Assembly: GCA_016782405.1 (NCBI GenBank)
Contig: JADHYO010000003.1
Location: forward strand, 1-36,654
DNA: 36,654 nucleotides
Source of the DNA: Candidatus Aenigmatarchaeota archaeon
GTDB taxonomy: Archaea; Aenigmatarchaeota; Aenigmatarchaeia; QMZP01
Direction: 5' to 3'
The notes under the pieces were generated by a model, which was not told where the DNA came from, ran no database searches, and worked only from the letters and a program-made list of their open reading frames with translations. Position numbers and translations under genes: made by a program. The stretch's first letter is position 1. Each line of letters starts with the position of its first letter. Below, one piece after another: positions 3,471 to 29,127 of this stretch.

Positions 3471-3669
3471 CCCTTAGGGGGTCTTTTCTTTTCATCCAGT
3501 TGACCATTTTTGCAATCTTGAAGAAGCCGCGGTCATAGAATGAGTCAAGGAATTTATTGTAGCAAAATCTGCAAAGGAATCCATTCACACCAGAATCAAC
3601 ACTACTGTCGCTTACTTTCACTTCAAAACGTTTCTCCACGATTTCCTTGCAAATAAGGCAGTGTTCCAT
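3463..3669 (-). CDS. Small Cys-containing protein (possible zinc finger)
   Basis: MEHCLICKEIVEK...GFLCRFCYNKFLDSFYDRGFF; two CxxC pairs. Start at 3669 preferred over 3780 because the upstream segment overlaps another Cys-rich ORF in a different frame. Confidence 0.5.
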   Translation of the reverse strand: MEHCLICKEIVEKRFEVKVSDSSVDSGVNGFLCRFCYNKFLDSFYDRGFFKIAKMVNWMKRKDPLRVI

Positions 3670-3674
3670 TTCAT

Positions 3675-3824
3675 TCACTTTCCCCAACACAGGAACCACC
3701 ATTGGCACTTGTGCCCCCTCATCGTTGTTATGCAGCAGTCCTTGCACATCATTGCCAGGTTGGGGTTGTGTGATTCGCATTTTTTGCAGATGGTTAGCTT
3801 CTTACAACTGTTGCATTGCTTCAT
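3675..3824 (-). CDS. Cys-rich microprotein, 49 aa
   Basis: Hand translation: MKQCNSCKKLTICKKCESHNPNLAMMCKDCCITTMRGHKCQWWFLCWGK*. It ends 5 nt before the next start codon (3669). Confidence 0.5.
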   Translation of the reverse strand: MKQCNSCKKLTICKKCESHNPNLAMMCKDCCITTMRGHKCQWWFLCWGK

Positions 3825-4001
3825 TAAACTTCCCCCCCACACCTTTTGATAAGAGGTATGTACCCTTTGGAATATAAACCACTCTTACAATTTTTTTGAA
3901 AGATGGCTTTTCTGGGCGTGTGATATTGGGGGAGAGTGTCTCTTAAAGCTTTCCCCAAGAGATTCCCGAATATTTATAAAATTTCTTTCCAATGGGGAAG
4001 T

Positions 4002-4613: not shown

Positions 4614-4620
4614 CTGACAC

Positions 4621-5025
4621 CTAGTCAGTGCCTCTCAGTGTTTTTAGGTATTTTCGAAGTTCTTCGGTGTTTTCTGCAAGCCCGATAGCAGCACCTGTTA
4701 AGACATCGTAATCTTGGTAATGCCCTGAATGTTCGTCGCCTCCGCATTCACCTGGGTTAATAACGAGCCCACTGAAAATAACATTCAATAAAACATCTGC
4801 TTCCTCTACATTTCTTGCAACTTCAAGCACCCCTTTTTTTATTCTTCTACGAAATTCCATGGGTTTGGTGTCCCATTCTCCCCCGTGAAGAAGACAAGAA
4901 TCATACTTACCCTCTAGCCCCTTCCTGTTCTCCTCTCTTCTATCATACCTTTGTTTAACTCCCATTCTTACGTATGTTTTCAGATCTGTTGACAGGGTAT
5001 CTTTATCTGGGAACATTTGAATCAC
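4621..5025 (-). CDS. Hypothetical protein
   Basis: 134-aa ORF in an otherwise empty gap; no family recognised. Confidence 0.45.
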   Translation of the reverse strand: MIQMFPDKDTLSTDLKTYVRMGVKQRYDRREENRKGLEGKYDSCLLHGGEWDTKPMEFRRRIKKGVLEVARNVEEADVLLNVIFSGLVINPGECGGDEHSGHYQDYDVLTGAAIGLAENTEELRKYLKTLRGTD

Positions 5026-5167
5026 TGCAATGTTGGTTGGTTGTTATTTTTAAATAAATTGAAAGCGCCGCATTGGATGGTTTATGCTCCATGGAAACTA
5101 ATTTAGGGGCGGAAGCGCTTGATAGGGTATTGCACAATATTTATAAAGTTTTTGTTTAATCATTTTC

Positions 5168-5398
5168 ATGGTATCGAAAATACGTATTGTGAGTTGTGGA
5201 TCAAGGGAGGGGTTTGTCAAAAGGTTAATCGATGGCGGGTTCGATAAAGAAGATGATTACATTACAGACTTGCTATGGTATAAAGATAAAATTGGGAAAG
5301 AATATACTGTTAGAAAAGAAGGCAATATGGTATATTTTGCTGGCGATGCGGATAAATACCATACTGTTGACAAGGCGGATGCGGTAGTGTTAAAATAA
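5168..5398 (+). CDS. Hypothetical small protein
   Basis: 76-aa ORF, TATA-like aatatttataaag just upstream (about 5137). Confidence 0.45.
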   Translation: MVSKIRIVSCGSREGFVKRLIDGGFDKEDDYITDLLWYKDKIGKEYTVRKEGNMVYFAGDADKYHTVDKADAVVLK

Positions 5399-5403
5399 AG
5401 AGC

Positions 5404-5568
5404 CTAGAGCCTGAAGCGCTTGATATTTTGCATTGGTGCTGAAGGACTGCTGCTCGATCCTCTGCCGATTGGTTCTAAGACCGGATCATAAAGATTGGAA
5501 GTGCGACCAGGGTAGCTTCCGCCAGAGGTGTTGCAGTAGCGGCTTGTGTGGCGTTTTTCCATGTACAT
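5404..5568 (-). CDS. Small ORF, 54 aa
   Basis: Hand translation: MYMEKRHTSRYCNTSGGSYPGRTSNLYDPVLEPIGRGSSSSPSAPMQNIKRFRL*; fills the gap before rad50. Confidence 0.3.
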   Translation of the reverse strand: MYMEKRHTSRYCNTSGGSYPGRTSNLYDPVLEPIGRGSSSSPSAPMQNIKRFRL

Positions 5569-5683
5569 ACTTTCACATTATGTTATGTTTCACGTCTTTC
5601 TTTTAATTGATTCCCTTGGTGCGCCTAGTGCATAAATTACGTTGCAAGAATTAATTTCTTATTTCCAAGGATTGTATGGGAAC

Positions 5684-24713: not shown

Positions 24714-24785
24714 TTTTTGAAAAATCACCAAAAGCTTTTAAAACTAACATTCAAAAATCTATTACAGCGTTTTTATGGAGGGAAC

Positions 24786-25127
24786 ATGAGATTCAAGCTT
24801 TTTGGCAATGAAATGGAAGAAGTTGAAGAAGGCGGAGAAGGCTGGGTTGAAGTCAACATGGAGCACGGGACTGCTGCCCCAGGCAGGGTTGGCATTTCTG
24901 TGGAGAAGCTAAACGAGTTTGCTGACACCGAGAGAATTCTTCGCTCAGTGAGAAAGGGGAACATTATCTTCCTCAAAATAAAGGGCCTAAAGGAAAAAGA
25001 CATTGGGGAACTTAAAAGAGCTGTGGAGAAGCTCAAGAAAGCCATTGTAGCGAACAATGGAGACATTGCCGGTGTGGAGCAGGAATGGCTTATTCTCACG
25101 CCAGAATCTGCAAGTGTTGAGCGGTGA
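24786..25127 (+). CDS. sepF: SepF-like cell division protein (archaeal)
   Basis: SVEKLNEFADTERILRSVRKGNIIFLKIKGLKEKDIGELKRAVEKLKKAIVANNGDIAGVEQEWLILTPESASVER. Confidence 0.82.
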   Translation: MRFKLFGNEMEEVEEGGEGWVEVNMEHGTAAPGRVGISVEKLNEFADTERILRSVRKGNIIFLKIKGLKEKDIGELKRAVEKLKKAIVANNGDIAGVEQEWLILTPESASVER

Positions 25128-25131
25128 AACA

Positions 25132-25140
25132 CTTAAAAAT
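25132..25140 (+). promoter_or_regulatory. TATA-like element, candidate promoter of the structured island
   Basis: cacttaaaaattg directly after the sepF stop, about 25-30 bp before the first hairpin-rich sequence. Confidence 0.35.
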
Positions 25141-25159
25141 TGTTTTATTTTACATTAAA

Positions 25160-25640
25160 ACCAGGTGCATGAGCGTAAGCTTTTTATAGCTTAGTGTGAA
25201 GATTAAGGTGATTATGCTTCACTCAACAGTACTTACAGCAAACAATTGAAATTGGTTTGCTAACTAGGGAAGAAAGGACGCCTCTTGAAGGAACCTGGAA
25301 ATGGTTTCCCAAGCGTGCGGCTTTGTCAGCTGAGTCTTTCCCCCTGGACAAACCTGGGAAGACTTTGCTTTCCTGTTGGGTGACTTTTGATTGTCTTTGA
25401 TCCGGGTTGGGTTATGGATATTCCCACCTTCAATATGTCCCTATTAAATCGCAGGAGTGTTCAACTTCTTCGGAAGTTCAATCTGACCCGGATCGCCATT
25501 AAAAGACACAACTTTAGGATAGGACAACTTTGTGGGCTTGGGATATTTGCTTCTTCTCATCTTTAGGATGCCACCTTCCCTTGCCTGTTTATTGGCCCCC
25601 TAGGGCTGGTTTTTTGGGAAGCGGCATTTGCCGCGGAAAG
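25160..25640 (+). ncRNA. Candidate structured RNA/5' leader (multi-hairpin, no known family recognised)
   Basis: Helices seen: taagct/agctta (25176-25193); gtgaag/cttcac (25196-25222); gcaaac..gtttgc (25238-25260); agtctttccc/gggaagact (25333-25364); gatccgggt/acccggatc (25399-25407/25486-25494) enclosing aacttc-TTCG-gaagtt (25463-25478); gcggc-attt-gccgc (25621-25634). Confidence 0.5.
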
Positions 25641-25647
25641 GACTTCA

Positions 25648-26649
25648 ATGCGAAGTTTTATTGTGTTGGTTGTGGCCATGATGTTCATGGTACCCTGGGC
25701 TGATGCTCAGGCTCCGCAACCAAAGCAGGACCGGGTCACCCTGAAAAGCATTACCGGGGCGACTGACCCTCTTGTCTCAACAGCGACTTTCACCTACCAC
25801 ATCAAAATACTCAAGGGCAAGGGGAAGGATGTGCATTTCTTCCCCCCGCCGAACCAGAGGAGAAGTAAGCCGGCAGGGACAGTGACGGGTATTTCCAAGC
25901 TGACCCAAGATAATGATGAAAACATCACCGGATCAGGTCCCCCCCTGAACGGCTGGGTCCCGGTTGGGGGTAAGGTTCAGTTCACGTCTGGAAAGGGGAA
26001 GACAACAACCCGATATGGCATCAACTTTTTGGCCAAGGGCACCACATCCCAGGCCATGGGTCCGGGATTGTATGAGATGACAGTCGATGTTCCCAAGAAG
26101 AAAGGTAAGGGGGGATTCGTAGACCCTCGGGTAGGGATAGGTAGGTGGTATGTGACGTCGGATGGGAAGGGATATGTGAATGCAAAACTCTCCTCCCAGA
26201 ATAACAACGTCATCATGCAGTATGACGGAGAGAAGGACAGAACTCCCATCATCATACCGTTCCTGGAGGACAATATCCAGGCCGTGGTCTCGGCGACGAA
26301 CCACACCCCGGTGGATAAAATCCAGGCCGGTGGGACGCTCACACTCAAGGTCGAGCTGATCGAGGGCAACGTTCCCTACCTGGTAGTGTTCGGCACCAAC
26401 GAGCTGAACCCGGCATCGTGCTTCATCGGTGCCAGCCTCGAGGTGGCGCATGGGCCGCTTTTCATGGCCTCGCTACTGCCCGGCGTGATTCGGGGCGGTT
26501 TGGGGGTTGTGAATGAAGCGGGCGAGGCATTCGCCGAGCTCAACATCCCCAACGCTCTTACAGGGATCACGCTCCACATCCAAACGTTCTTCGTCACCCA
26601 CCAGGGTGGCAATAGCACGTTCCCCATCGAGGTGAACGTGACGAAGTAA
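25648..26649 (+). CDS. Secreted protein of bacterial-like character (unknown function)
   Basis: SD-like ggaaagga 5 nt before ATG, signal peptide MRSFIVLVVAMMFMVPWADAQA, Gly/Pro/Thr-rich beta-type sequence; markedly GC-rich toward the 3' half (40 of 60 bases in 26281-26340). Confidence 0.75.
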   Translation: MRSFIVLVVAMMFMVPWADAQAPQPKQDRVTLKSITGATDPLVSTATFTYHIKILKGKGKDVHFFPPPNQRRSKPAGTVTGISKLTQDNDENITGSGPPLNGWVPVGGKVQFTSGKGKTTTRYGINFLAKGTTSQAMGPGLYEMTVDVPKKKGKGGFVDPRVGIGRWYVTSDGKGYVNAKLSSQNNNVIMQYDGEKDRTPIIIPFLEDNIQAVVSATNHTPVDKIQAGGTLTLKVELIEGNVPYLVVFGTNELNPASCFIGASLEVAHGPLFMASLLPGVIRGGLGVVNEAGEAFAELNIPNALTGITLHIQTFFVTHQGGNSTFPIEVNVTK

Positions 26650-26654
26650 CGAAT

Positions 26655-26736
26655 ACCGGGTTCGGGGTAGTGTCAGGACTTGCGGTTCCTAGTGGTATGT
26701 CCTGATTATTTGCAAACTGCAAATACCCGACCCGGT
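26655..26736 (+). ncRNA. Candidate three-way-junction RNA element
   Basis: P1 accgggttcggggta/tacccgacccggt (26655-26669/26724-26736); P2 tcaggac/gtcctga (26673-26679/26699-26705); P3 tttgca-aac-tgcaaa (26709-26723). Confidence 0.5.
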
Positions 26737-26754
26737 TCTTTTGAATGAAAAGGC

Positions 26755-26843
26755 CGGGGCGGCTGGGAAAAACGAGCTGGGAGTTCGGTTGTTGTTGCCG
26801 ATTTATAGCTCTCACACATTTTCCCTCCTATCAGGCCGCCCCG
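26755..26843 (+). ncRNA. Long interrupted hairpin
   Basis: Nested perfect arms cggggcggc/gccgccccg (26755-26763/26835-26843), gggaaaa/ttttccc (26765-26771/26819-26825), gagct/agctc (26774-26778/26807-26811). Confidence 0.5.
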
Positions 26844-26994
26844 TGTCCTTTGTCGGATAGATTCCCAGTGAAATATTTGGGCTCTGAGCCGTTCATTACC
26901 CAGAGACCCTATGTATAAGCTTAACCCGCTTTATCTGTATTTTGGGTTCGGTTCAGGGCTCTTGAATATACATTGGTTCAGTTTTCTGGGATCG

Positions 26995-27081
26995 CCGGGA
27001 GGGGGCATCAAAAGAAAGACAGGAAGATCTCTTCACAGAGACCTCGTTTTACCTACTTCATGTTTCCTGCCCCCTGACCGG
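26995..27081 (+). ncRNA. Long-range stem enclosing a small hairpin
   Basis: ccgg-g-agggggca (26995-27007) with tgccccct-ga-ccgg (27068-27081); internal tctct-tcac-agaga. Confidence 0.4.
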
Positions 27082-27111
27082 TTTGGCCAAGCGGGTACTT
27101 TTAATATGTTC

Positions 27112-27199
27112 GGGGAGGGTGTGTGCTGCGTTGGATTCTTTGAATTCAGTGATGTTGATCCCCCAATCAGCCCTGGTGCATACTCCTCCCCCTTTTTTT
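27112..27199 (+). terminator. Terminal stem followed by T7 (candidate 3' end/terminator of the island transcript)
   Basis: ggggagggtgtgtgc (27112-27126) pairs with gtgcata-c-tcctcccc (27176-27191) using some G-U pairs and one bulge, followed by ttttttt (27193-27199). Confidence 0.5.
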
Positions 27200-27212
27200 A
27201 AAAATAAAATTG

Positions 27213-27243
27213 GCTCGCTGTTTGTGTTGTCAACTTAGCGGGC
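27213..27243 (-). terminator. Candidate terminator hairpin after the aCPSF1 gene
   Basis: gctcgct/agcgggc arms 19 bp past the aCPSF1 stop, then a T-rich run on the minus strand. Confidence 0.35.
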
Positions 27244-27261
27244 ACGATTAGAAATTCGGAT

Positions 27262-29127
27262 TTATTTGAGGCGGATTGCGTCTGTTGGGCGGGGAGCAAG
27301 TGTTTCCATGCGGAACATTTTATGCACATCGCGGGCGAGCTCCTGGCATTTCTTGGCTTCGCCATGAATCATCATGACCCTTTCAGGGCGGGAGCGGAGG
27401 CGGCGAACATAGTTTGTGAGTTGGTTCCTGCCGGAGTGGCCTGTCATGCCGTGGACTGTACCTATTTCCATGTCAATGTTCAGGGTTTTTGTCCTTCCAC
27501 CCTCACCGGCCATTGGGAGTGTTTTCCAGCCTTTCTGGATGCGGGAACCTAGTGTGGCTGGGTGCTGCCACCCTACAAACATTAGGGCGTTCTTTTTGTC
27601 AGGGGCCAATCCCTTCAAGTATTCAATTGCCGGGCCGCCAATAAGCATGCCTGAGGTTGCGAGGATTACTGCAGGTTCTGAGGAGTCTATGATGGAATCG
27701 CGCTCTTTTGGGGCAACGCGCTTGAACATGTCAGAGAGGAATGGGTTTTTACCGTAGCGGAAAATGTTCCGCTGCATGCTTCTGGAGAGGTATTCTGGAT
27801 AGGCTGTGTGGATTGCAGTTGCGTCCCATATCATACCCTCCATGTAGACTGGATGCTGGAAGTTGTTGCCCTCGAGGATGGACATGACCTCCTGGCCACG
27901 GCCAACAGCAAAGCTGGGGATTAGGATTTTTCCACCGCGCTCCATTGTTTTGTTGATCATTTCCATCATATTTGCTTCCACATCCCTTCTTTGGGGGAGA
28001 ATGTTGTCTGAGCCTCCGTATGTGGATTCCATTATTAGGGTTTCAACCCGCTTGAAGTCTGTCCAGGCAGGGTCACAGAGGCGGGTGGGGCCGAACTTGA
28101 AGTCTCCTGTATAAAGGAGGTTGTGCACGCCTTCTCCCACATGGAGATGGACCAGTGAGCTTCCTAGGAGGTGGCCTGCTGGTTGAAGTGTGAGACGCAT
28201 GTCTGGGGTTATGTCAGAAACCTCCCCGTAGCCTAAAGCAATGGAATGCTTCACCATTTTCTCTACTGCTTTTTTGGAGTAAGGAGGCGTCTTGCCGTTC
28301 CGTTGGCAGATGTCAATGTAGTCCAGGCAGAGGAGTACAATAGTATCGCGGGTTGGTGGTGTCAAGTAAAGGGGTCCTGTGAAACCCTTCTCGTAGAGGT
28401 AGGGGATCAAAGCCCCGTGATCAATATGTGAATGGGAAAGGACAACAGCGTCTAGATTACCAATGTCAAACTCCGGCACGTCCAGAAAGGGGTAGTCACC
28501 TGTTCCAGGCACAACCCCACAATCAAGCATTACATTGGAGTTTTTTGTCTGCACAAGAATGCAACTCCTTCCAACCTGGCGAGCAGCTCCGAGGAATGAT
28601 ACCCTAACCCAGTCATCCTCTTTAGAAACGTCAGAATTTATTTTCTGGCCTATTCTGTTCAGAAACTTCTTCCTGTAGTCAATCTCTGTGTGGAGGAGGT
28701 TTCTAACAGCGCGCACAATTGGAGACTTTATGCCAGGGGCGCGCTCAATCTTGGGCAGCCAGCAGGTTTCATTTTTTATCTTCCTGTAGGTTTCCCCGCC
28801 TTTACCGATTACCAGGCCAGGTTTCTGGGCCTCTATAATGACCTTCCCGAGTTCTGGTTCAAAATAAATTGCATGGATGCCTGCATCCTCTGAGATTGTC
28901 TTCTCGATGAACTCTTTTGTCTTTTCTGGGTCCTTTGTTATGGAAAGATCGGGACGCAGCTCCACGCGCTTTTTCAGTTCCCTTACAATAGAGCGGATTG
29001 TTGATTCTCCATTCTGGAAAAAGTCCTTGTTCTTCGTGTACATTACAATCTCAGAAGCTTCAAATTTCATCTCAGTGATATCTGCATCTGAGGGAAGCTT
29101 TTTTTGCAGTTCCTTTAAGATAGACAT
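27262..29127 (-). CDS. Beta-CASP ribonuclease aCPSF1/FttA (KH domains + metallo-beta-lactamase)
   Basis: N-terminal KH (GLVIGKGGETYRKI), VVLSHSHIDHGALIPYL, beta-CASP motifs, MTGHSGRNQL...VMMIHGEAKKC. Confidence 0.95.
   Translation of the reverse strand: MSILKELQKKLPSDADITEMKFEASEIVMYTKNKDFFQNGESTIRSIVRELKKRVELRPDLSITKDPEKTKEFIEKTISEDAGIHAIYFEPELGKVIIEAQKPGLVIGKGGETYRKIKNETCWLPKIERAPGIKSPIVRAVRNLLHTEIDYRKKFLNRIGQKINSDVSKEDDWVRVSFLGAARQVGRSCILVQTKNSNVMLDCGVVPGTGDYPFLDVPEFDIGNLDAVVLSHSHIDHGALIPYLYEKGFTGPLYLTPPTRDTIVLLCLDYIDICQRNGKTPPYSKKAVEKMVKHSIALGYGEVSDITPDMRLTLQPAGHLLGSSLVHLHVGEGVHNLLYTGDFKFGPTRLCDPAWTDFKRVETLIMESTYGGSDNILPQRRDVEANMMEMINKTMERGGKILIPSFAVGRGQEVMSILEGNNFQHPVYMEGMIWDATAIHTAYPEYLSRSMQRNIFRYGKNPFLSDMFKRVAPKERDSIIDSSEPAVILATSGMLIGGPAIEYLKGLAPDKKNALMFVGWQHPATLGSRIQKGWKTLPMAGEGGRTKTLNIDMEIGTVHGMTGHSGRNQLTNYVRRLRSRPERVMMIHGEAKKCQELARDVHKMFRMETLAPRPTDAIRLK

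Follow-up and report, generated by a model that had tools for sequence, protein, structure and literature searches.

A probable horizontally acquired gene cassette with a lineage-specific 3′ end site in a genome of the Aenigmatarchaeota

An inserted unit separates the convergent genes sepF and aCPSF1

The window analysed here, a stretch of 36,654 nt, belongs to a metagenome-assembled genome (MAG; termed G000) of a Candidatus Aenigmatarchaeota archaeon. The genome comprises 625 kb in 28 contigs with a GC content of 0.449, is ~65% complete, and was used as a whole for statistics. Within the window, the convergent genes sepF and aCPSF1/FttA lie on either side of positions 25128–27261, where an inserted unit of ~2.1 kb is located. 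The features of this region are as follows.

24717–25127, + strand: sepF, native left neighbour (PF04472; synteny)
25128–27242, + strand: inserted unit (putative cassette); left end inexact, right end at or just past the motif
25266–25581, + strand: long rod-like hairpin in the 5′ flank, with a C(UUCG)G-capped stem at 25463–25478 (MFE fold of 25140–25647, z −3.3)
25621–25642, + strand: small hairpin GCGGC-ATTT-GCCGC, then SD-like GGAAAGGA (sequence)
25648–26649, + strand: ORF of 333 aa with a signal-peptide-like N-terminus, of bacterial (Planctomycetota-like) type (sequence, codon statistics)
26323–26610, + strand: C-terminal domain, residues ~226–321, common to Planctomycetota secreted proteins (profile E 2.5e-11)
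26655–26736, + strand: first of the hairpins downstream of the ORF, closed by ACCGGGTTCGGGGTA/TACCCGACCCGGT, then TTCTTTTG (window z −5.3)
26753–26843, + strand: GC-rich hairpin closed by CGGGGCGGC/GCCGCCCCG (fold)
27112–27199, + strand: terminator-like long hairpin (27112–27191) plus T7 (27193–27199) (sequence, fold)
27221–27241, + strand: 21-nt cassette-end motif TTTGTGTTGTCAACTTAGCGG, common to other foreign insertions in the archaeal family
27262–29127, − strand: aCPSF1/FttA, native right neighbour (PF17214, PF10996; 60–69% identity in relatives)

The convergent sepF–aCPSF1 pair is kept in 14 relatives from the same family and order, usually with a gap of 10–100 nt, and aCPSF1 identity to relatives at these ranks is ~60–69%. 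The genomes of the relatives are mostly incomplete MAGs. As the pair is kept at short distance in these organisms, the island is an insertion and not the product of a chimeric contig; native synteny on both of its sides also settles the concern about misassembly that had been raised in a first-pass annotation of the window. The genome is a MAG and shared 21-mers can produce false joins, but an assembly or binning artefact is extremely improbable given this synteny, a second case that lies inside a ribosomal-protein operon (see below), and site-to-site variation among the copies of the end motif, whose frequency in Planctomycetota genomes does not exceed background. In four relatives the sepF–aCPSF1 gap is longer, with other ORFs inside it in some, and the gap therefore appears to tolerate insertions. 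One of the genomes (G030, locus L025) carries a different insertion of ~790 nt at this place, in which a RelE-type toxin–antitoxin pair was recognised by eye only. No second copy of the whole island was found in G000 or in 60 relatives.

The left boundary of the island carries no recognisable site. Inspection of left edges gave suggestive half-sites only, namely ACTTAAA behind sepF and AACGGGATA behind cmk in L305. A 9-nt inverted repeat at the island edges (TTTTATTTT/AAAATAAAA) was considered as a pair of element ends and rejected, since its halves are the T-rich ends of two convergent genes. The direct repeat CCWGGTGCAT, present close to each edge, was likewise rejected as a target duplication, since its right copy is inside the terminator hairpin.

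The island carries a gene of bacterial type

The first-pass annotation had described a single GC-rich ORF with an SD-like site and a signal peptide, and this description holds. The ORF at 25648–26649 is preceded by GGAAAGGA 5 nt ahead of its ATG, and the N-terminus of the 333-aa product, MRSFIVLVVAMMFMVPWADAQA, resembles a signal peptide. With a GC content of 0.55 and a GC3 of 0.70, the ORF ranks first of the 390 genome ORFs of at least 600 nt both in codon anomaly and in GC3. The protein has no match in Pfam or NCBIfam and no significant match in PDB, and no similarity to transposases was found in this single ORF of the island. Relatives are absent from 156 genomes of its own phylum and from phages, plasmids and viral contigs, and a peptide-pattern search of GTDB contigs returned nothing. 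The single-sequence AlphaFold model is too poor for use (mean pLDDT 38).

The C-terminus resembles a domain of Planctomycetota secreted proteins, and this resemblance was taken as a lead. A set of 392 Planctomycetota genomes, derived from loci in a 16S pattern scan, was searched, and the matches concentrate mainly on residues 226–321; two of the genomes gave 55 and 75 candidates at first look. With a profile of the bacterial domains, the island protein is recovered at E 2.5e-11. This value is somewhat favourable, since the profile members had been selected for their similarity to the query, although the separation from the next protein of the same genome (0.35) is still large. The island ORF matches the domain proteins at residues ~226–321 but is shorter than most of the members seen, and no relative of its N-terminal part was found. 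The recurrent C-terminal domain itself is not matched by any Pfam or NCBIfam model. Judging from these sequence comparisons, the ORF is probably a bacterial secreted-protein gene of Planctomycetota type.

The flanks of the ORF are highly structured

The flanking stretches at 25128–25647 and 26650–27261 are without credible ORFs. On the + strand, the 5′ and 3′ flanks fold with z scores of −3.3 and −4.4 (−3.6 and −5.6 in a second run), compared with weaker scores of −2.5 and −4.1 on the − strand, and both fold better than 100 of 100 dinucleotide shuffles. Against a background of 250-nt windows over the 36.6 kb (mean z −0.26, sd 1.2), those at 25251 (z −2.8), 26501 (−5.3), 26751 (−3.3) and 27001 (−3.5) are outliers, and the two in the centre of the ORF are ordinary (+0.4 at 25751 and +0.5 at 26001). 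The proposal that structured, ORF-less segments surround the gene is thereby confirmed (z about −3.5 and −5, outliers relative to the rest of the window), and the described end in a stem plus T7 is present. The island was also said to stand apart from the rest of the window; this is true of the folding of its flanks, but other long gaps exist at 4614–5641 (1,028 nt, two small ORFs) and 3471–3935, and folding of these whole gaps is not unusual. A TATA-like element proposed near 25132 is unconvincing, as TTTTTATA at 25182–25189 is equally good.

In the first of these gaps, an exact 13-nt direct repeat, GAAGCGCTTGATA, at 5112–5124 and 5412–5424 surrounds an ORF of 76 aa (5168–5398). The core of the repeat is unique to that place in the genome, and the ORF is possibly another small insertion.

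Rfam yielded no match at the gathering threshold and chance-level matches only at E ≤ 10, and the covariance models of OLE, GOLLD, ROOL, HEARO and group I/II introns gave no match, in agreement with the initial statement that no group I/II intron core, RNase P or SRP RNA signature is recognisable. The same initial reading had suggested that both flanks form one large functional RNA with an embedded mRNA. Strong + strand folding, seen in each flank but missing from the two windows in the centre of the ORF, would fit such an RNA, but the collections searched contain no homologue and Rfam no match. Moreover, structured stretches in other units that carry the end motif (L302 4900–5580, z −7.3; L242 between motifs, −7.0; C12 6518–7000, −4.1) have no sequence similarity to the island except the motif; those in L302 and L242 look like successive terminator hairpins, in L242 also with a tRNA. 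The remaining motif units tested fold ordinarily. We consider a single functional RNA highly unlikely for these reasons. Most simply, the structured flanks would be donor terminators and UTR or non-coding RNA sequence that were carried along. The L242 stretch between two motif copies (L242:2490–3440) has almost no coding capacity and contains several near-identical terminator hairpins (CCAGATTCTG/GGATCTGG) as well as the tRNA.

A 21-nt motif at the right end recurs in one archaeal family

The first-pass annotation placed the island at 25140–27200, and the motif at 27221–27241 sits beyond these coordinates. Its recurrence was detected by self-comparison of the genome, which contains ~10 copies. 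One copy only is present in the window, where none is expected by chance, and an inverted form is absent from the left end of the island. Conservation of the consensus, TTTTGTNYTGTCAAYTTARVGGGATA, is highest past its T-rich start. The 11-nt core TGTCAACTTAG occurs eight times in the genome, in all cases but one outside ORFs of at least 100 aa, the exception being inside a doubtful ORF. One copy of the motif follows closely on C24:17652–18509, the ORF that ranks second in the genome for codon anomaly.

With a refined pattern that allows up to three mismatches, ~75 copies were found in 14 of 22 genomes of the family, compared with ~1 control match. Outside the family, one genome of a sister family has five copies and few occur elsewhere; looser matches in genome G019 may be noise. 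The 392 Planctomycetota genomes show no excess over the control level, no copy turned up in viral contigs, and a literature search for the motif and its core returned nothing relevant. A stem, GCTCGCT/AGCGGGC, around the motif of the island was rejected as a shared feature because it is not general.

The motif mostly borders foreign-type genes, often behind variable hairpins

At 39 sites in relatives, a stem with a score of at least 8 ends at the motif in 62% of cases, versus 3.7% of T-matched controls, and the sequence of this hairpin differs at every site. The island has no strong hairpin within 45 nt of its own motif; the nearest one, which carries the T7, ends ~20 nt upstream. At 37 of 41 sites in relatives, the first ORF upstream has the same orientation as the motif, counted with preference for the sense ORF where both orientations are present. 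Homologues in G000 exist for 4 of 41 upstream ORFs versus 15 of 39 downstream ORFs (Fisher p 0.0035). Among the proteins encoded in the cargo of the motif units are PEP-CTERM proteins, one with PATR repeats, a pilin that carries an N-methylation motif, a ThiF-like enzyme, a XerC-like recombinase and, by a weak match, an outer-membrane-barrel-like protein. On the other side of the motif, aCPSF1 and LigT/ThpR were identified by Pfam, and gatB, argS, PolB, a DEAD-box helicase, EF-2 and ribosomal-protein genes by eye; these genes are often antisense, and some antisense ORFs take their stop codon TAA from the motif.

Tandem copies of the motif in one orientation are found in L303, L305 and L242, and none at the island itself. 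In L309, a ribosomal-protein operon that is collinear with contig C4 of G000 is broken by a motif together with orphan ORFs, at a place where the gap in G000 is 370 nt.

The main rival to a cassette holds that motif and hairpin form a lineage-specific transcription terminator or 3′-end signal, which acquired genes either require or come to carry, and that the island arrived by ordinary horizontal transfer, without any insertion system dedicated to it. The hairpin and T-run do look like a terminator, almost all copies of the motif sit at a 3′ end, and in one case tRNA-Met precedes it. Such a signal accounts for the hairpin, but not for the ~14 nt past the T-run, which are the most conserved part, nor for the nearly exclusive link to non-native genes: sense genes ahead of the motif are almost never conserved ones. 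The motif also lies at borders between foreign and native DNA and in tandem between foreign units, and some native ORFs on the opposite strand extend into it and end at its TAA. We therefore regard this explanation as unlikely, though as the strongest of the competing ones.

Several further observations were made at motif sites. In five genomes from two families, a gene for a ~100-aa protein that combines a zinc ribbon with an HTH-like part lies directly next to the motif, in one orientation or the other. The gene is single-copy in G000, and the protein may be an anchor or factor of an insertion system. Its locations are as follows.

G000 C24:1874–2176
L236:2960–3256
L302:6227–6526
L303:5107–5430
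L320:2818–3117

In three genera, a copy of the motif is also located close to the argS 3′ end, each time with other cargo (G000 C12:6497–6517; L242:2490–2512; L236:3272–3294), as if this gene end were a shared attachment place. In L240:9944–10040 it directly follows tRNA-Met and not a foreign ORF; the DNA beyond is unusually AT-rich (GC 0.29), as would be expected if an element had integrated at the tRNA gene. In L302 (10411–12073), the gene of a XerC-like tyrosine recombinase, either cargo or enzyme, is located ~200 nt ahead of a motif. Finally, a run of orphan genes of ~4.7 kb (L304:9503–14195), whose two ends are formed by a tyrosine integrase of 379 aa and by the motif, adjoins genes with homologues in G000 and is a candidate autonomous element. 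Proximity of integrases and motifs was set aside as a sign of the recombinase, being by rough estimate no more than chance.

Comparison with known mobile elements

Group IIC introns insert behind terminator hairpins, and the junction at the motif is likewise directly behind a hairpin and T-run, but the island has no intron core, no reverse transcriptase and no Rfam group II match. Integrative elements of tRNA genes use tyrosine integrases of archaeal and phage type. Tyrosine integrases occur in the family and one motif directly follows a tRNA-Met gene (L240), but most copies are away from tRNAs and the island is without an integrase.

A further likeness is to integron gene cassettes, which are mostly single promiscuous genes with a structured 3′ site, form tandem arrays in one orientation and carry cargo across domains. 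Archaeal integrons and CALINs have been published (Ghaly et al., 2022; PMC9668308), and the anatomy of the motif units, with their tandem arrangement, hairpin at the site and cross-domain cargo, would suit a diverged but genuine integron (CALIN) whose attC sites are too divergent for a simple test. We judge this very unlikely. A perfect RYYYAAC/GTTRRRY pair was found at 0 of 39 sites, and complementarity of the motif to the upstream 160 nt equals that of shuffles (7.69 versus 7.65 nt). Unlike integron cassettes, the motif units have no R″/R′ pair, are conserved only 3′ of a hairpin of unrelated sequence, and for the most part occur scattered, as single inserts at the ends of genes. The ~65% complete genome gave a weak Phage_integrase match only, and no IntI was identified. 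Because the simple attC tests failed at the 39 sites, we describe the unit as cassette-like in its working and do not file it as an integron cassette.

A shared insertion system is the favoured interpretation

Taken together, the island is probably a horizontally acquired gene cassette with a lineage-specific 3′ end site and part of a shared insertion system, as the same site ends many orphan and bacterial-type inserts, both single and tandem. Foreign codon usage, the Planctomycetota-type domain, the empty site in relatives and the shared edge motif support the initial suggestion that the unit is mobile or was acquired horizontally, and a cassette that is or once was mobile is the best-supported reading.

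A bacterial gene with its structured surroundings and terminator would thus have entered the convergent sepF–aCPSF1 gap. In the process that we envisage, a DNA unit ending in a hairpin and the site would recombine into the chromosome at sites close to the ends of genes, in a manner much like that of integron cassettes; the variable hairpin may be recognised by its shape and the constant 3′ part by its sequence. We infer site-specific recombination at the motif by a dedicated enzyme, perhaps with a circular DNA intermediate. A more tentative proposal, to which we give somewhat less than even weight, is an undescribed gene-capture system of one archaeal lineage with small genomes that look DPANN-like in size and gene content, operated by an enzyme other than an integron integrase. 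Such a system would join bacterial genes with arbitrary hairpin ends to a constant end sequence and insert them close to gene ends, singly or in arrays.

Gene flow from bacteria to small archaea is widely inferred, but for the most part without a known molecular route. With a short, searchable end signature on foreign genes, such a route becomes testable: captured genes can be listed, excised circles sought in reads and candidate recombinases screened. Should the system prove not to be integron-based, it would represent a second cassette-type route for genes across domains.
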